From positions 1,396 through 16,543 of the forward strand of contig JAJFBO010000003.1 of the NCBI GenBank assembly GCA_020697025.1: DNA of 15,148 nt, given 5' to 3'. Shown here one piece after another: positions 1 to 8,094 of this stretch. Numbering within the stretch: the first letter of the stretch is position 1; every line of letters starts with the position of its first letter. Made by a program: the position numbers and the translations under genes. Source of the DNA: Burkholderiales bacterium (GTDB lineage: Bacteria; Pseudomonadota; Gammaproteobacteria; Burkholderiales; UBA11063). A model generated the notes under the pieces. It was not told the DNA's origin and did not search any database. It saw only the letters and a program-made list of their open reading frames with translations.

Positions 1-3000
1 AACCAATACTATAGGCCTGACCACTAGCTAAATCAAAGTTATTCTGCCAGCTAGTTAGAATTGATTGTAGTTCATTATTATTAATACCTGGGCCATTTAA
101 ATCTAAAATTTTTAGTTCTGGAACTATAATATTAGCAGCATAATACTGCTTACAATTAAAACTATCTTTTTTATTACCAGGTAATGACTCAGTTATATAA
201 TTTAACCTAAAACTATCATGATAATTAATTAGGTATTTAATACTTTGCCGTAGTATCTCAATTTCTAACTCTTGCGTTTTAATTAAAAATGACTGGTTCC
301 AATGTGCTGCTTCTACAAAATTGTTATTATAAACTTGATCCCAGAACCACTGCTGAATAGGCAGCATTGGCACTTCACCAGAAAGGTTTCCCCCTTCACT
401 TAAAATTGATAGCTGGATATCATTTAATATAATTTTACTTATTACTTTGTCATATAAATCACGTATAGTTTTATGATTAAATATATCTTCTATCCGTACT
501 GACAGGTTTAATCGTTGTCTTAACTTATTTACTATCTGGATACTTGTAATACTATCAGCGCCAAACTTAAATATATTATCAGTAATACTTATCTGATGAT
601 TTGATATATTTAATACTTCAGTAAAGATAGTTAATATTTTAGCTTCCAGATCATTTCGTGGAGCCAGAAAATTCTTTGTTGAAGCAACATCGGGAGCTGG
701 TAGCAAGTTTCTATCTAATTTGCCATTTATTGTTAAGGGTAATTTATTTAAGTAAACAAATACATTGGGTATCATATACTCAGGTAATTTATTGGATAGA
801 TAAAATAATAATTTTTCTTCGTCATGAATAATATCTGATACATAATAGGCTACTAAATATTTATTGCCAGGTGATAGTCCCTCATTATTAACAGTTTCTT
901 TAGCAATTACGACTGCATTTTTTATGCCTGGATAAGTGTTTAACACACTCTCGATTTCACTTAATTCAATCCTATAACCACGGATTTTTACCTGAAAATC
1001 ATTCCTGCCTATGTATTCTAAATCACCATTTGGTAAATAGCGTACTAAATCTCCAGTTTTATACATTCTGGTATTTATATCAGATTGTTTTTTTGTATCA
1101 GTTTGAAATGGATTAGGCAAAAAACTCTCTTTAGTTAGTTCCTGAAGATTTAAATATCCGCGAGCCAAACCTGCACCACCAATGTATAACTCACCTATAC
1201 TTCCCATTGGTAATGGATTTAAGCTTTTATCCAAAACGTATATTTTTTGATCTGGGATTGCTTTACCTATATTTGATATTTTATCCGCATCTTGTTCGTA
1301 AATTTCTTTATATGTTACATGTACGGTTGTTTCTGTTATTCCGTACATATTTACCAACTTAGGCTGATAATCTACATATTTATTAAACCAAGGTTTCAAA
1401 TTTAATAAATTAAGAGCATCTCCTCCAAATATGACATAACGTAGATAATCTAATTTCTCATTCTCTAATGCAACGTTGATAAATTCATAAAAAGCTTTTG
1501 GTGTTTGGTTTAAAACAGTTACTTTCTGTTTATTACATAATTTATAAAATAAACTTGTATCTTTTATTTGCTCTATAGTAGGAATTATTAATTTACCCCC
1601 ATAACATAATGCTCCCCATAGCTCCCATACAGAAAAATCAAAGACATAAGAATGAAATAATGTCCATACATCATGAATGTTAAATTGATAGAAATCATTA
1701 GTTGCTGTTAATAGTCTATGTACATTATTGTGTTGTTGAAGTACACCTTTAGGTTTGCCAGTTGCTCCACTAGTATAAATTACGTAAGCCAAGTTTTTAC
1801 TTGTTATATTTAACTCTGGATTTGCTATCGGGTATTTCCTGAGAATCCTGGTAAAGTTTTTATCATCTACCCTTAAAATATTGGAGTATGGATTATTACT
1901 TATATGGGAATGAGGAATTTCCTGAAAACTTCCAGGTGTTACTTTGTCAGTTAGCTCTTGATTATGGCTGTTAATAATTAAGGCCCTGGCCCGTGTATCT
2001 TCGATAATGTAGTTAATTCTTTCATCTGGATAATCTGGGTCAATAGGCACATATGCTGCACCTGATTTAAGCACACCTAATATGGCAACTATCATATACT
2101 CGCTTCTATTTAAGCATAATGCTATTAAATCATCTCCTTTTATCTGATACTTTTCCCTCAGATAATGCGCTAATTGATTCGCTCTTTGATTTAATTCCCT
2201 ATAAGTTAGCTGCTTGTCTTCATAAACTACTGCAATATTATCTGGGGTTTTGGCTGCTTGTTCTTCAAATAACTGATGAATAGTCTTATCCTGCGGGTAA
2301 TCCTTATCTGTTTTATTCCAATCATAGACTACCATTTGGTAATCTTCTTTTGATAATAATTGGAGATATTTGACTTGTGGGTTTGTTCTTATGTCATCTA
2401 AATGACTGGCAAAAAGGACGTTAATAGTTTTTATCAGCATCTTTATAAAAACAGCATCTTTTTTATAAAACTTTACTGATACTTTATTTTGTTTAATTGT
2501 AAACACTACGCTATGATTATCAATTGTACCTGAGTAATTATCAGTAATTGCAAATTCACTACATAAATTTAAATTATATCTATAGCCAAAATCTTTGAAT
2601 AAATCAAACTTATTATTAATAAATTCCTCATTTATTTTTTGAGTCATTTCATAATAGGAGAAATCTAAATTTTTCTGCTCTATAGGTATTATACTTATAT
2701 ATTCAATAATTTCATTTATAAGATAATTTGTGTTATCAATATGATTATGATAAATTTTTAAGAAAGTATCACTGCCATTTAAGCGGCTTAATATAATAGA
2801 TAAAAATAAGCATACTATATCAGCAGACATTTTATTGCTAAGGTCTATTTCCTGCTTCTCATCTGAAGGTAAAACATATGAAAGCAAACTACTTTGCGTT
2901 TCACATTCATTAACTAATTCAGTTAGCTTATTATAATAGTTAAACTCTTTTTGCTTGAGTTTTTTACAACCAGACAGTTCAGCAGGGCTTAAATGATATA

Positions 3001-3832
3001 GGTCTATATCTGCAAATACAAATTTATGGTTTACACTTTTACCATATATATCTTTTAACACACAGCCAGATGGATCAAGAACACTAAATTTCTCCTGGGT
3101 TGGTTTACTTTCCAGGATATAAGTTACACCCTTAATTTTTACTTTAACAGTAGCAACCGGATTAATATATCCATCACCAAAATTTAAGCTTTTAAATAGT
3201 GTATTTATATAAGATATTGTATCAACAGAACTTATATAAGCATAATTATCTGGTATATGCGCCCGGCCAAAATAAGTCTTTTGGGATAAATCCTGCTTAA
3301 TGCCTATTAGCTGATCTTGTTCAATATCACTAATTAGTTTTCTAAATCCACTAAATGCAGCTTCTGTGCATTTAAGATTAAGAGAAAATGCAGTATCAGC
3401 TTCCTCAACAGGAATTTCAGTTGTGTAATAAATATCACCTTCATCAATCCCTGCTATTATTTCATGCCAGCTAATACCATGAAATGGTTCATTATTGAGG
3501 ATTGCCCAGGTTGTACTACTTACTCCCGCATATTTAGGAAGAAGACTATCATGATAATTAATGGCTTTTATGGGCTTAAGTTGTGCCAGTAGTTCATCTG
3601 GAATGATATACGGATTGATGATACTAAATAAATAACAACTATTTAAATTATTGAATTCAAAAGCCTGCCTGGTATTTAAACAAGGTATGGAACGCTCTTT
3701 ACACCAATTAATTACATAAATATCATGGGTAAATACCGCTTTTATATTCCAGTTATTAGTTAGTAAATACTCTATACATCTGGTTGCTAAAGCGGTTTCA
3801 CCAAAAATAATTGCATTTTTTCTAGTTAGCAT
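1..3832 (-). CDS. Nonribosomal peptide synthetase starter module: formyltransferase - C remnant - A(Thr) - T - E (partial)
   Basis: The frame opens with ATG at 3830-3832 and stays open for 1277 residues to the left edge, so the C-terminus is missing. Domains in order: a formyltransferase (about 1-280) with the N-x-H-x-SLLP signature at 92-98 (N92, H94) and a matching Asp at D130, the Asn/His/Asp set of N10-formyl-tetrahydrofolate-dependent enzymes. Then a C-terminal-lobe-like piece of a condensation domain (about 310-500) lacking an HHxxxDG motif. Then an adenylation domain (about 515-1045) with [11 protein letters not shown] (686-696), MYGITETT (829-836), YKTGDL (924-929) and NGKLDR (1036-1041). 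Then a carrier protein with phosphopantetheine Ser in GADSI (S1094). Last, the start of an epimerization-type domain ([13 protein letters not shown], 1152-1164; HWNQSFL, 1177-1183). Aligning with GrsA, the ten pocket residues read DFWNIGMVHK, the known threonine code. It should load, formylate and epimerize Thr. LgrA (linear gramicidin) is the well-known relative with an N-terminal formyltransferase. The start has no clear Shine-Dalgarno. Confidence 0.95.
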
Positions 3833-3879
3833 CGTTTAAGCTCAAATTATAATATATGAAAATTATAGTTTTTATCATT

Positions 3880-4239
3880 CTAAGATTTGGTTATAAATGT
3901 AATTCCACAAATTATAAGAACCGCGCCAATTGTCTTATATAACATGCCTGTATTTTCTTTAAAAAATATCAAACCGGTTATTAAGGATAAAACTATACAT
4001 GAACCGACAAAGATTGGATAGATTTTTGAAAAGTCATACTTGCCAAGTAAATAAATCCATAAAAATGTTGCCAATAGATAAAAAAACCAGCCGACTATAT
4101 ACCATAAACTAGTAACTTGTTTATGCAGCAAATTGGCATTACTAGAGAATTTCAGGATTTCCCTGGCTGAATATTTCCAGAATATTGAGCTTGCTACTGA
4201 TGAAGATATTGCTATAAAAAACCAGACAACAGGATTCAT
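3880..4239 (-). CDS. Small four-helix DMT/SMR-like membrane protein
   Basis: This 119-residue, very hydrophobic protein has four predicted membrane helices at about 3-22, 44-66, 73-93 and 98-117. Length and layout match the small multidrug resistance / ArnE-ArnF / half-EamA branch of the drug-metabolite transporter superfamily. The third helix region (KIYPIFVGSCIVL) and the following FFKE with a G-rich last helix fit that superfamily. TM1 has no glutamate where EmrE carries its essential Glu14, so a proton-coupled drug antiporter of EmrE type is unlikely; an ArnE/F-like flippase subunit or another small carrier is more likely. It starts 47 bp upstream of the NRPS on the same strand, so the two are probably one transcript, and it could export or flip the peptide or a precursor. 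That role is inferred from position alone. TAGG about 10 bases before the ATG is a weak ribosome binding site. Confidence 0.75.
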   Translation of the reverse strand: MNPVVWFFIAISSSVASSIFWKYSAREILKFSSNANLLHKQVTSLWYIVGWFFYLLATFLWIYLLGKYDFSKIYPIFVGSCIVLSLITGLIFFKENTGMLYKTIGAVLIICGITFITKS

Positions 4240-4328
4240 ATTTTTTCAACCTATAAAAAGTTAAACCATAATATTTTATAACCATTTATATAATAAATCA
4301 GATCATGTAATACTTATTTTGAAATTTG

Positions 4329-4334
4329 ATTATA
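4329..4334 (-). promoter_or_regulatory. Candidate -10 element for the DMT/NRPS operon
   Basis: The minus strand reads TATAAT here, about 90 bases before the ATG at 4239. No good -35 match lies 16-18 bases upstream; the equivalent position falls inside the inverted repeat at 4340-4359. That would suit a promoter needing an activator bound upstream, for example at the palindrome 4370-4389. In DNA this AT-rich, a single TATAAT is weak evidence. Confidence 0.3.
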
Positions 4335-4339
4335 GAAAA

Positions 4340-4359
4340 AGCTTCATAAAGTAGAAGCT
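4340..4359. repeat. Inverted repeat AGCTTC / GAAGCT
   Basis: Two perfect 6-base arms (4340-4345 and 4354-4359) flank an 8-base spacer. The repeat sits between the candidate -10 (4329-4334) and the 20-bp palindrome. It could form a small hairpin or a dyad operator; there is no T-run to make it a terminator. Confidence 0.45.
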
Positions 4360-4369
4360 AAGTGGTGGG

Positions 4370-4389
4370 TAAATTACAATTGTAATTTA
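4370..4389. promoter_or_regulatory. Perfect 20-bp palindrome, putative operator
   Basis: TAAATTACAATTGTAATTTA equals its own reverse complement over all 20 bases, with no spacer. Continuous dyads of this size are typical binding sites for dimeric regulators (MarR, TetR or AraC-type). It lies about 130 bases upstream of the DMT/NRPS operon start and about 57 bases upstream of the start site implied by the candidate -10 at 4329-4334. No regulator gene is in the window. The palindrome is directly visible; the operator role is inferred. Confidence 0.55.
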
Positions 4390-4683
4390 TAAAATAACTG
4401 CCTGTTAAACTCTTTAACCAGAAATACTGTCTATAGTGATGTGTATATTATATCTAAAAGTATAAAAAGCAATTCTCTTTGTCCAGTATATATTTTAAAC
4501 TAAATTTAATTTCTAAAGTAAATTTTACAATAAAGAAAATAACTGCAATATAAAAAGTTTAATTAAAAGTCATAATTTTAAAAACTATTTATACAGTGAT
4601 AATGTTAGCTATTCTAATAACCTGAATTATTAAACTTGGCTATAAACATCTGCTTATAATGATAAAGTATATCACAACAGCCA

Positions 4684-4723
4684 AATATTTAATCAAAATT
4701 TTACGACCAGCGAATTAAATATT
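4684..4723. repeat. Inverted repeat with 10-base AT arms
   Basis: Arms AATATTTAAT (4684-4693) and ATTAAATATT (4714-4723) are perfect complements around a 20-base spacer that contains AAAATTTT. A run of five T follows on the plus strand a few bases later. All-AT arms can arise by chance in such DNA, so functional meaning is uncertain. Confidence 0.35.
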
Positions 4724-4932
4724 GATAATATTTTTAGCAAGATTTGTTAATTTTATAATAATTAAATACTTTACCTACCAAATTCGGGGTTTAACTAATT
4801 TACTAAATATGGTTTAATCCTTACCTGAGTAATTGATATTATATAAAACATATAGTTACATTATTAATTATTTTTTACAAAACACTAATAAATATTTTAA
4901 AATCCCTTAAATTAAGTGGTAAAAAAGGTTCT

Positions 4933-4968
4933 TTGCACATGTAATTAAATGTATAATTGTTAGTGCAA
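4933..4968. repeat. Inverted repeat TTGCAC / GTGCAA with long spacer
   Basis: Six-base arms at 4933-4938 and 4963-4968 enclose 24 AT-rich bases. The arms are among the few GC-containing stretches of the gap. They could be paired half-sites of a regulator or a long-loop stem; chance is also possible. Confidence 0.25.
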
Positions 4969-5095
4969 TTTAAACCTATAATCTTTATTACTTACATAAA
5001 ATGATCTTGTGGATTATTTTATTGAAGTTATAAAGCATTTAAATATTGCTCCAGATTTAGTGGATCCTAGCTGCTATTCTTAAGGCTATCTATAT

Positions 5096-5124
5096 TTAAG
5101 TCAACCTACCTATACAACTATACT
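5096..5124 (+). promoter_or_regulatory. Candidate promoter of the orphan gene at 5187
   Basis: TTAAGT (5096-5101) and TATACT (5119-5124) are separated by 17 bases and match the sigma-70 consensus at 3/6 and 5/6 positions. The implied start lies about 56 bases before the ATG. An alternative pair, TTGTGG (5007-5012) and TATAAA (5029-5034) with a 16-base spacer, lies further upstream. Neither is strong evidence on this AT-rich background. Confidence 0.3.
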
Positions 5125-5186
5125 ATTTATAAGTTTGTAGAATAACTTCAAACCAAATAAAACCTGTATCTATTGTAGGAATAAAT

Positions 5187-6548
5187 ATGCAAAATATTAA
5201 AGATGGCCGATTACAAAATACTTACATTTATAATTTATCTGAAGTATTAGATTTAATATCTGTAATAAACCCTACATTTTCAAAACGTATTCAAGAGAAG
5301 TATAATCAGTTAAAAGATTTTCCTTTTCTGGTGGTAAATTATCCATTTGGCGAGAGAATAATTCATAAACGTGATGTATTTTTACCTATTGCAGGTGGTG
5401 GAAGCATATCAGTTAATAATCAGTCCCTGCCCCCTATTATACGCGATAATTTTAGCTATACTAAGGGAGTTAATAATCCAGTAGGATTAATTTTGAACAA
5501 AGAATCTGAGTTTTATCTCTCAATGGCCAACCGTATAGTTTCCTATCCAACTATTAATGTAGGGCAAATGTTTGGATTTGTTCATATAGTTGATGCCGTG
5601 ATGAAGAAAAAGTCAAAGGCTAGTGTTTCTATCTGGAATCTGGATGCAGGCGCCAGAACATCATTTATATTACCCAAAATATCGGAGAATAATAGTCATA
5701 CAAATTTATTAAGGACTTATAGGATAGATGTAGAAAAACCTTCCTCCTATACAGATCAAAGCAAAATTTTTAGTGCACTTAATAATAGTATTAATAACCC
5801 TTGGACACAGTCTGTGTTATATTTTCCCAGGCAATTATTAGAAAGAATAAAAACAGATCCAACATTTCTGGAAATTTATCAGGAAATGTGCAATATCCAT
5901 CGTTCAAGTTATAATATTTGGCATAATACTTATACTAAATGGGATAATGACTTAGCTCTTGTATTTCAAGAAGCTAAAATAAATAAATTATCCGGCTACG
6001 CCATAAATATAGCTAAACATATTTATTTAACTATTGCCGGAGGGGTTTCCTGCTTTGCGCCGGCAACTGACGAAAACATGTTACCTAAAAAATTGATTGA
6101 AAAAGCATATTCAACACAAGAAGGTTACGGATTAAGTCAATACTGGCCAACTATTATGCAGCCTAAGCAATTTGATTTTAAAGAACCAGTTTATTATTCG
6201 ATCAGCCTGCCAACTTTAATAAATTATAATCCAGAAACATTTACAGAAAAAACTTCTATAGCTCTCCTGGTAGAAGTAGCGACTATACTAGACAGATGCC
6301 AAAAATATTTAATAAATAAGTTTGATGATTATGAATCGTTTCTGTATGAAACTGCAATAAAGGTAAAATTTTCTTTTTATCATGATGACCCAAATCCACA
6401 AAAATATAGAAATTTGATAAAGAATAGCACATTAATTCCAGAAGAAGATTCACGATTTTATAAAAAAGGCTGGGCCTTCCCAGCTCATAGCCAATTTGTT
6501 CGTGGCTGCATCAAGATCGAACCGTTACAACCTCCTATAACTAATTAG
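5187..6548 (+). CDS. Unrecognised 453-residue soluble-looking protein
   Basis: I do not recognise a family. The start is well supported by TAGGA about 8 bases before the ATG. There is no signal peptide, membrane helix, P-loop, zinc-binding cluster or repeat, so a cytoplasmic protein is likely. Features that might help a search: IAGGGSISV (about 68-76), a middle part rich in aromatic residues (IWHNTYTKWDND), IAGGVSCFAPAT (about 284-295), GYGLSQYWP (about 315-323) and a charged C-terminal part with FYHDDPNPQKY. Aromatic residues and Asn are common throughout, which partly reflects the AT-rich genome. It diverges from the NRPS operon across a 947-bp gap and overlaps the convergent protease gene by 8 bases. 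It could belong to the NRPS locus or be independent. It is clearly coding, since 453 codons stay open with normal protein composition, but its function is unknown. Confidence 0.85.
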   Translation: MQNIKDGRLQNTYIYNLSEVLDLISVINPTFSKRIQEKYNQLKDFPFLVVNYPFGERIIHKRDVFLPIAGGGSISVNNQSLPPIIRDNFSYTKGVNNPVGLILNKESEFYLSMANRIVSYPTINVGQMFGFVHIVDAVMKKKSKASVSIWNLDAGARTSFILPKISENNSHTNLLRTYRIDVEKPSSYTDQSKIFSALNNSINNPWTQSVLYFPRQLLERIKTDPTFLEIYQEMCNIHRSSYNIWHNTYTKWDNDLALVFQEAKINKLSGYAINIAKHIYLTIAGGVSCFAPATDENMLPKKLIEKAYSTQEGYGLSQYWPTIMQPKQFDFKEPVYYSISLPTLINYNPETFTEKTSIALLVEVATILDRCQKYLINKFDDYESFLYETAIKVKFSFYHDDPNPQKYRNLIKNSTLIPEEDSRFYKKGWAFPAHSQFVRGCIKIEPLQPPITN

Positions 6549-8094
6549 TGAATTGGGCACGATATTTTATCATACCTCTGGTATCCAGAATTTTGGCGCT
6601 AATTACATCACTCAATGTTGAGTCAGAACCCCTAATTATTATAGCTTTTTGATATTGCTCCAGTGCTGATTTATAATCACCATTTAAATAAAATGTATTA
6701 CCCAAAGCATAAAAATACTTCTGTTTATTGTTTAAACCAGTATCTGAATACAAAGAAGACTGCCTAAGCCATATATCTAAATCATTGGGATAGGTACGGC
6801 TCAAATTATCTAATTTTTTACTGGCTATACTGTATTGTTTGGAAACAAGGTATAAATCCACCTGGCCCAGCCATAATGATTTGTGTGTAGGGTAATTACT
6901 TAATGCATCGCCCAGAATTTTATCTGCAGCCTTATAATTTTTAATTGCAATTAAAATTTGTGCTTTTAAACTTAAAACTATCGGATGAGAAATAAAATTG
7001 GCCTCACTTATTTTTGCCAACGCAGTACCTGCCAGTGCAAGATTTTGATTTACAAAGTATGCATAAGCTAAACCATAGTATTGTGCGTCTAAATTAGCAT
7101 ATTTTTTACTAGTAATTGATTGTTTATAAAAGTTGATTGCTATTGGAGCTAATAATTGCCTGGTTCTACATTTTTCACGAATTAAAAGAAAACTCACACT
7201 ATCTTGCCGCATTTTGACATGTAAATTACGCGCCCGGTTTTCTGCTTCGCTAATTCTGGCACTTGTAACTGGATGAGTACGTAAAAACTCATAAGCACCG
7301 CTATCATTAAATTTATTTGCATCTTGCAAGCTCTGAAAGAAGCTAGGCATTGCTTTTGGGTCAAACCCGGCCTTATACATTATGCCTTGCCCTACCCGGT
7401 CAGCTTCACGCTCAAAATCGCGTGAAAACGATAACATATTTTGTATTGCCAGGCCCTGTCCGCTATTTAGTGCAACAATCGCTGCTGCTGGATTAAATGC
7501 AGCCAATAAACCGCCAGCTAAAACACCAGCAAGAGCTAACCATTGGCTACGGTTATAATTAGCAATATTACGAAAAATATGATGTTGTACGACATGTCCT
7601 ATTTCATGCGACATAACTGAGGTAAGCTCAGCTTCAGATTTAGTGGTAAAAATTAAGCCATTATACATGCAAATATATCCACCTGGCAAGGCAAATGCAT
7701 TTATCTGCTTATCTTTAATTATATAAAAATTAAAATCAGTGCCAGCTAAGGGTGAGTAACTCACTAAATTAGAACCAACTTCATTTAGATAAGTTAAAAC
7801 GTCATAATCATTTAACATATCCCCGGCACTACCAATTTCCTGAATTACCTGTAAACCCAAGAAGTTAGCCTCAGCAGGAGATAATAAAGCCCGATCGGAA
7901 TCTCCAATATCCGGCAAATTTCCACTATACTCACCTGGGACTGCACAACAAGTACCTGCAAATGTACTAAATAAAGTTACATCGATTATCTGCTTTAAAA
8001 ATCCACGGCGCTTTATATCAATTACTAATTCTTTTTGTGCCTGTGGTGCATCATATCTAGCATTATATAGCGCGGCTAAATACTTTTTTAGCAT
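6541..8094 (-). CDS. bepA: BepA-like M48 zinc metalloprotease with TPR region
   Basis: A periplasmic M48 protease of 517 residues (E. coli BepA has 487). The zinc site is visible: HEIGH at 163-167 and the third ligand Glu in EREAD (E228-D232). The conserved stretch NAFALPGGYICMYNGLI (132-148) precedes it. The C-terminal half (about 300-500) is helical with several tetratricopeptide-like units, for example YKSALEQYQKAI, as in BepA. BepA degrades or helps mature misassembled outer-membrane proteins such as LptD at the BAM complex. Placement 13 bases after bamC in the same operon agrees with that role. The N-terminus is odd: about 27 residues precede KRRGFLK (28-34) and a hydrophobic stretch, which looks like a twin-arginine signal with a long n-region rather than a plain Sec signal. 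CCAVPG follows, but it is not a good lipobox. AGG about 10 bases before the ATG supports this start. The paralogue family (LoiP, other M48) is less likely because of the TPR tail. Confidence 0.85.
   Translation of the reverse strand: MLKKYLAALYNARYDAPQAQKELVIDIKRRGFLKQIIDVTLFSTFAGTCCAVPGEYSGNLPDIGDSDRALLSPAEANFLGLQVIQEIGSAGDMLNDYDVLTYLNEVGSNLVSYSPLAGTDFNFYIIKDKQINAFALPGGYICMYNGLIFTTKSEAELTSVMSHEIGHVVQHHIFRNIANYNRSQWLALAGVLAGGLLAAFNPAAAIVALNSGQGLAIQNMLSFSRDFEREADRVGQGIMYKAGFDPKAMPSFFQSLQDANKFNDSGAYEFLRTHPVTSARISEAENRARNLHVKMRQDSVSFLLIREKCRTRQLLAPIAINFYKQSITSKKYANLDAQYYGLAYAYFVNQNLALAGTALAKISEANFISHPIVLSLKAQILIAIKNYKAADKILGDALSNYPTHKSLWLGQVDLYLVSKQYSIASKKLDNLSRTYPNDLDIWLRQSSLYSDTGLNNKQKYFYALGNTFYLNGDYKSALEQYQKAIIIRGSDSTLSDVISAKILDTRGMIKYRAQFTN

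Follow-up and report, generated by a model that had tools for sequence, protein, structure and literature searches.

What does a peptide synthetase that begins with a formyltransferase (F) domain make, and how does its assembly line end beyond the edge of the sequenced stretch? The DNA analysed here, called the window, covers 15,148 nucleotides (G000:C95:1396-16543) of a Burkholderiales MAG, G000, of 1.60 Mb in 291 contigs and 88% complete.

An F-A-T-E initiation module

A single open frame on the reverse strand, ORF 2-3832(-), encoded 1277 aa and was still open at position 1, the window edge. Pfam searches of this frame returned Formyl_trans_N (E 9.8e-15), AMP-binding (E 1e-87), AMP-binding_C (E 6.4e-7) and PP-binding (E 3.5e-15). 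They also matched the beginning of a Condensation-superfamily domain (E 1.7e-6), with 27.5 bits against a curated cut-off of 30.6. The A core motifs and the carrier serine were present downstream of F in the same frame, as seen in a motif check. The features discussed below are the following.

3002..3832, reverse strand: formyltransferase domain, residues 1-277, with catalytic lobe and C-terminal lobe; N92, H94, D130
2378..2986, reverse strand: condensation-domain C-terminal lobe (C-lobe), approximately residues 283-485, lacking the N-lobe and HHxxxDG
701..2290, reverse strand: adenylation (A) domain, residues 515-1044, code DFWNIGMVHK (threonine); Pfam and TIGR01733
449..658, reverse strand: carrier (T) domain, residues 1059-1128, phosphopantetheine serine S1094 in GADSI; Pfam PP-binding and motif
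2..379, reverse strand: epimerisation (E) domain, first part, residues 1152-1277; the rest and the start of a condensation (C) domain lie further left on this contig, at L009:1-1367, outside the window
3880..4239, reverse strand: 119-aa membrane protein with weak SMR/ArnF similarity, 47 bp ahead of the synthetase gene
5187..6548, forward strand: 453-aa protein, divergent from the synthetase, of a family without Pfam or NCBIfam match

A first-pass annotation of the letters alone had proposed an F-A-T-E starter in one frame, in a proteobacterium and next to housekeeping genes. This description held: F, A and T were matched by Pfam in ORF 2-3832(-), as was, below cut-off, the first part of E that lies within the window; the host belongs to the Burkholderiales; and the neighbours include a BamC-like lipoprotein, DapA, CoaE, a prepilin peptidase and a CorC-like protein. 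We are highly confident that the window encodes an initiation module of the order F-[C-lobe]-A-T-E, and this module begins an NRPS that most likely has two modules. The domains, their catalytic residues except the HH of the E domain, the C-lobe, and the E and C start on the same contig are read directly from sequence and model. Scans of positions 3820-6700 gave near-chance numbers of promoters (25 versus 20.1, sd 4.8) and terminators (2 versus 0.9, sd 1.0).

The formyltransferase domain and its relatives

N92, H94 and D130 were found at the residues that had been named beforehand. Across 26 aligned sequences, that of the window among them, N92 and H94 were invariant and D130 was conserved in at least 90%; a loss of catalytic residues that would make F inert was not seen. 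The domain is a complete two-lobe enzyme, nearest to ArnA/Fmt-type structures, and is predicted to formylate the carrier-bound threonine.

Formylating synthetases had also been described as few. This is true of the known products, of which there are three according to the accessible part of a 2022 review (PMC8949500), and it is not true of genomes: in GTDB genome contigs, 202 of 219 stretches encoded F-NRPS relatives (80 were kept), from Legionella, Cyanobacteria, Acidobacteria, Micromonospora, Bradyrhizobium and others. Three known products thus stand against about two hundred stretches in GTDB genomes alone. Two protein searches returned 112 and 76 proteins, 186 of them distinct. Closer to the window, the F module was present in 2 of the 23 genomes of the genus, and among 399 genomes drawn from the order Burkholderiales an F match with E <1e-30 was obtained in five, two of which belong to this genus; the other 55 matches were weaker (E 6e-20 to 8e-13) and mostly lay in Fmt-sized frames.

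Two variants of the architecture were observed. Single-module F-A-T-TE enzymes made up 56 of 193 pooled sequences (e.g., P0019, P0034, P0051; loci L062, L066, L090, L102), some of them named Legionella. Many of these enzymes had the code DLPELGEV[SA] or a close variant, which was seen in at least 23 of 170 sequences; their expected product is an N-formyl amino acid, released as such or as an oligomer. In the second variant, the F domain is internal and directly follows a condensation domain, C-F-[C-lobe]-A-T (L050, L063, L067, L076, L078, L104; P0020, P0024, P0028, P0043, P0098). The A code following such internal F domains fitted D.E[ND].G[TS][IV][IV] in 8/8 readable cases versus 2/149 other F modules, some redundant (Fisher p 6e-12, uncorrected for relatedness); the pattern was drawn up after the codes were seen, P0043 was dropped as a duplicate of L050, and P0028 and P0098 had no readable code. 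We take this code to be Orn-like, and its occurrence suggests that internal F domains formylate the side chain of a basic residue. No description of Orn-like codes in internal-F modules was found in the open-access literature searched.

This observation bears on the possibility that the F domain of the window has no activity, or that its formyl group goes not to the loaded alpha-amine but elsewhere, such as to a side chain or a free amine. The internal F domains of the family, placed after C and before A domains of this one code class, speak for it. We nevertheless judge it improbable, as N92, H94 and D130 are present and conserved, the F domain of the window stands at the N-terminus, preceded by no C domain, and threonine has no second amine.

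A condensation C-lobe between F and A

The F and A domains are joined through the C-terminal half of a condensation domain, the half with HHxxxDG being absent. The insert was considered as merely the C-terminal lobe of F; this was ruled out, as F, with both its lobes, stops at about residue 277 and the C-lobe after it is a separate unit. The F/C-lobe cassette was detected by HMM in 137 of 164 F-A pairs; in the window itself it was recognised by fold, the C-lobe being folded alone, apart from F. Direct HMM matches in the family (n = 26) started at model positions 166-183 of 417 in 21 cases, at 230-242 in four and at 377 in one. With hhalign, a 21-row profile of the insert matched C domains at 86.3% (E 4.8e-6), and shuffled, reversed and F-domain controls gave at most 0.4%. 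The window's own subgroup (15 rows) reached only 1.6% (E 0.03) directly against C domains, so its link to them runs through the family profile and the fold: the subgroup matched the family at 96.2%, and the family matched C domains at 99.0%.

The F domain seems to have taken the place of the condensation-domain N-lobe. The remaining C-lobe would be a non-catalytic platform docking F on A and T, as a C domain normally does. If F did replace the N-lobe, this would offer a concrete evolutionary and structural route for a tailoring enzyme into an assembly line, and would supply a rule by which formyl caps could be engineered. An F domain joined to a truncated C domain was not found described in the open-access literature searched. 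In P0052, P0060 and P0061, the F-A spacing is too short for a C-lobe, possibly an ancestral or reduced form.

The epimerisation domain and the gap at the window edge

The rest of the synthetase had been expected beyond position 1, and the leftward extension of the contig bore this out. The contig runs on for 1395 bp (L009), with a run of 28 N at L009 1368-1395; beyond it lie the rest of E (LLVDSVSW, EGHGRE, GWFT) and a C domain, of which the first 80-90 residues are present. The E part in L009 passed TIGR01720 (74.8 bits, cut-off 74.2), matched the PvdL E-C and the GrsA/TycA E domains, and was 61% identical to the E domain of the ortholog P0140. The catalytic HH falls inside the N run, where P0140 reads HHLLVDSVSW. 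P0140 has 18 residues (54 nt) where the 28 N stand; the length of the gap was therefore misjudged in the assembly, which explains the change of frame.

A fragmented MAG of 291 contigs, 88% complete and with an N run at the window edge, might contain a degenerate gene or an assembly artefact. This is very improbable here, given the long open frame with its core motifs. The record P0001, from a Burkholderiales MAG, is 94% identical over residues 1-500, and the same module occurs in P0140 and in G016, a genome of the same genus; the P0001 match and the F module in G016 also make an assembly chimera unlikely.

The probable remainder of the synthetase

P0140 (3853 aa) reads in one frame F-A-T-E-C-A-T-R-PAS-histidine kinase-REC, with the motifs HHLLVDSVSW, EGHGR, GWFT and HHAILDG. 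In addition to the E domain, it resembles the window gene in the F/C-lobe region (56% over 510 residues) and the C start (76%). Three contigs of G000 carry a reductase (R) followed by PAS and histidine kinase: C4 and C257, both with C-A-T-R-PAS-HK in a single frame, and C61, which is cut inside an A domain. Identities of C61 to P0140 and to the G016:C1 protein were 61/64% for A-T, 65/70% for R, 57/58% for the linker and 68/68% for PAS; the R domains of C4 and C257 were 53% and 51% identical to that of C61. The C61 frame has an R domain with GATGHLG and, by eye, the H-box HDIRSP, NLINNA, DNGKGI, GFGIGL and the REC aspartates. Its HK-REC part was nearer to a kinase of G016:C5 (69%) than to those of G016:C1 (59%) and P0140 (44%), and its PAS was 83% identical over 86 residues to the PAS of G000 contig C108; kinase parts are shuffled in this genus.

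As the 3' part of P0140 has its match on C61 in G000 itself, a thioester reductase and a hybrid sensor kinase probably form the end of the synthetase. C61 is the probable, unproven 3' end of the window gene, as judged from these identities. No contig linking C95 to C61 was present in the G000 assembly, and the approximately 740 missing residues (most of the second C and the core of the second A domain) were not found in it; 400 residues of P0140 were searched, with a best match of 35%. Contig C192 was ruled out as the missing middle: its identity to P0140 was 23% in C and 40% in the A core, and its ends did not overlap exactly with C61.

An ordinary N-formyl peptide synthetase, resembling LgrA or the kolossin synthetase, would have no kinase; it would end in TE or R beyond the gap and make an antibiotic or siderophore-like product, and C61 would come from another synthetase. 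Kinase matches were indeed obtained in only 5 of the 186 distinct family proteins (one of the two protein searches was limited to lengths of at most about 2235 aa). P0141 and P0143, whose F domains are fairly similar to that of the window, have TE and no kinase (P0141 ends in TE), and the open-ended NRPS fragments C220, C42 and C135 could also own C61. We consider this rather unlikely: among the proteins compared at full length, the closest over residues 1-510 are P0139 (the G016:C1 protein, 59%) and P0140 (56%), which both end in R-PAS-HK-REC. P0140 also has the same E-C order, and the 453-aa family, represented beside the synthetase, often accompanies such kinases. As a whole, the locus is best explained, with good likelihood, by the F-[C-lobe]-A-T-E start of a two-module NRPS with reductase release and an in-frame PAS-histidine kinase-REC; judging from P0140 and C61, the polypeptide most likely continues in frame into these kinase domains.

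Predicted product

The code of the window A domain, DFWNIGMVHK, is that of DhbF2, predicted for threonine in the accessible part of PMC4169593, and of OciA-A2, whose peptides have threonine at that place according to the accessible part of PMC2533009; the portion available of PMC12283262 also associates it with N-methylated threonine-type residues. In the proposed pathway, A would load L-threonine onto T, F would pass the formyl group from formyl-tetrahydrofolate to the threonine amino group, and E would convert the starter to D-allo-threonine. As E is present, the starter should become N-formyl-D-allo-threonine. The second module, C-A-T, would add one residue, and the thioester reductase would free N-formyl-D-allo-Thr-X as an aldehyde or alcohol, the most likely product predicted from the domain order. 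The proposal of an uncharacterised N-formyl product is thereby supported as probable.

The A codes of P0140 are DVWHFSLIDK (module 1) and DISYIAYIYK (module 2); those of G016:C1 are DVWHFSLIDK, DLYNLSLIWK and DFWNIGMVHK, the second lying after a Cy-like domain with HISVDALLMDG. DVWHFSLIDK is a serine-like code and DLYNLSLIWK a cysteine code; the first A domain of P0140 differs in this from the threonine code of the window, which counts against the overall explanation. Also against it, no Sfp-type phosphopantetheinyl transferase was seen in the 88% complete MAG G000 (one match, a 131-aa frame); a second match, a frame of 208-234 aa, was present in 4/4 other genomes of the genus examined.

Synthetase-kinase fusions and neighbouring genes

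In-frame fusions of NRPS and kinase were found in five frames of two genomes (G000 C4, C257 and C61; G016 C1 and C7) and in the further proteins P0140, P0145, P0148 and P0181. P0181, identical to a frame in L066 from a gammaproteobacterial MAG, is an F-A-T-TE enzyme that continues into PAS and a kinase of a different type, containing HisKA, HATPase, REC and Hpt. At G009:C111, G009:C201 and G021:C127, the kinase is a separate adjoining gene, perhaps the ancestral state. Matches to the kinase or part of it, some to PAS alone, occurred in 12/23 genomes of the genus. At the R-PAS junction, a Met was present in 5/5 readable frames, preceded by AGGAG in G016:C1, by AGGA in C4 and C7, by a weaker purine run in C61 and by nothing clear in C257; an internal start there may also yield a free kinase. 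No description of an in-frame peptide synthetase-histidine kinase fusion was found in the titles and abstract beginnings of the open-access literature.

Two neighbouring genes were also examined. The 119-aa membrane protein, with weak ArnF/EbrB similarity below all cut-offs, possibly exports the product. Its G016 counterpart is 66% identical and occupies the same place, 43 bp before the synthetase; among the loci L020-L119 searched, the protein occurred only at the G000 and G016 loci. Upstream of the membrane-protein/NRPS pair, the G016 locus (L020:1218-7923) also encodes five proteins that are PAS-like and, by eye, have LuxR-like C-termini (TKREQQILYFLSMNKSPKDIAQII...); they are possible readers of a signal.

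The 453-aa family gave 28 matches, fragments included, in 9/23 genomes of the genus, and the only organism names among its 26 protein matches were Burkholderiales bacterium and Aquella sp. (P0120, P0134). It lay beside PAS-histidine kinases or NRPS-kinase fusions in 13 of the 28 matches; by hand count, a kinase match was within 5 kb in 12, and at G016:C7 a kinase-bearing frame ends 0.8 kb off. The other 15 copies, that of the window included, had no kinase match that near on their own contig. G016:C7 mirrors the window: the 453-aa gene and an NRPS-R-PAS-HK-REC frame are transcribed divergently. At G016:C1, a remnant of the family follows the kinase match at a distance of 28 bp. The family's loci (window 5187-6548; G016:C5, C7, C8; G009:C111, C201; G021:C133, C135, C221; G010:C41; G012:C13) have an adjoining PAS-HK-REC in about half. 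The 453-aa protein would be a partner of the synthetase-kinase.

The closest full-length relatives end in a signal-sensing kinase of their own, so the product may be a chemical signal, a role in which we are only moderately confident; it would most likely be a small signal or a molecule whose synthesis the kinase gates. We tentatively propose, as one joint reading, that the fusion arose more than once, P0181 having F-A-T-TE with a different kinase, and that the synthetase is a self-contained signalling protein. One polypeptide would make the N-formyl dipeptide aldehyde or alcohol, its own PAS-histidine kinase-REC would sense this product or report the state of the assembly line, the internal start might free the kinase, and the 453-aa protein would serve as a dedicated partner. 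A fusion of the synthetase to a sensor kinase, if real, would unite the making and the sensing of a small molecule in one polypeptide, and the function of an orphan natural product could then be tested directly through its effect on kinase activity.

Comparison with known systems

What is new about the locus is chiefly the F/C-lobe cassette and the kinase tail of the full-length ortholog, and less the formylation itself. The F domain of LgrA formylates a carrier-bound starter; LgrA is not known to have an E domain in module 1 or a kinase. LgrA (PDB 5es5, 6mfz), which had been cited as the classical parallel, likewise has an N-terminal F followed by A-T, and its A-T regions of modules 1 and 2 match the window at i-E 3e-106 and 9e-112. 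In this respect the parallel stands; it fails in that the F domain of LgrA is no more than a distant match (E 1e-4 to 6e-4) and the window has an added C-lobe. The LgrA A domain aligns from residue 198, compared with 511 in the window, which leaves no room for a condensation C-lobe: in the LgrA-type didomain F is joined directly to A, whereas approximately residues 283-485 intervene in the window. The weak match and the different spacing rule out an LgrA-like F domain.

We know of no kinase tail or reductase in the kolossin A and anabaenopeptilide synthetases. These enzymes, KolA and ApdA, are F-domain NRPSs like that of the window, a likeness drawn from their descriptions, and account for two of the three F-NRPSs with known N-formyl products in the accessible part of PMC8949500. 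P0042, an F-NRPS fragment labelled Photorhabdus temperata, belongs to the same F family as the window (E 8e-40).

Outside the formylating synthetases, ArnA and Fmt are separate enzymes that act on a UDP-sugar or Met-tRNA, not on a carrier protein. The aureusimine-type AusA (A-T-C-A-T-R) has two modules and a reductase and makes a small aldehyde product. Its model was among the best NCBIfam matches of the window synthetase, below cut-off; compared with AusA, the window line adds an E domain and the kinase, and its formyl cap would block cyclisation to a pyrazinone. Finally, the tails of P0140, G016:C1 and C61 have the same PAS, H-box, N/G boxes and REC as hybrid sensor histidine kinases (PAS-HK-REC), but are fused in frame to a peptide synthetase.
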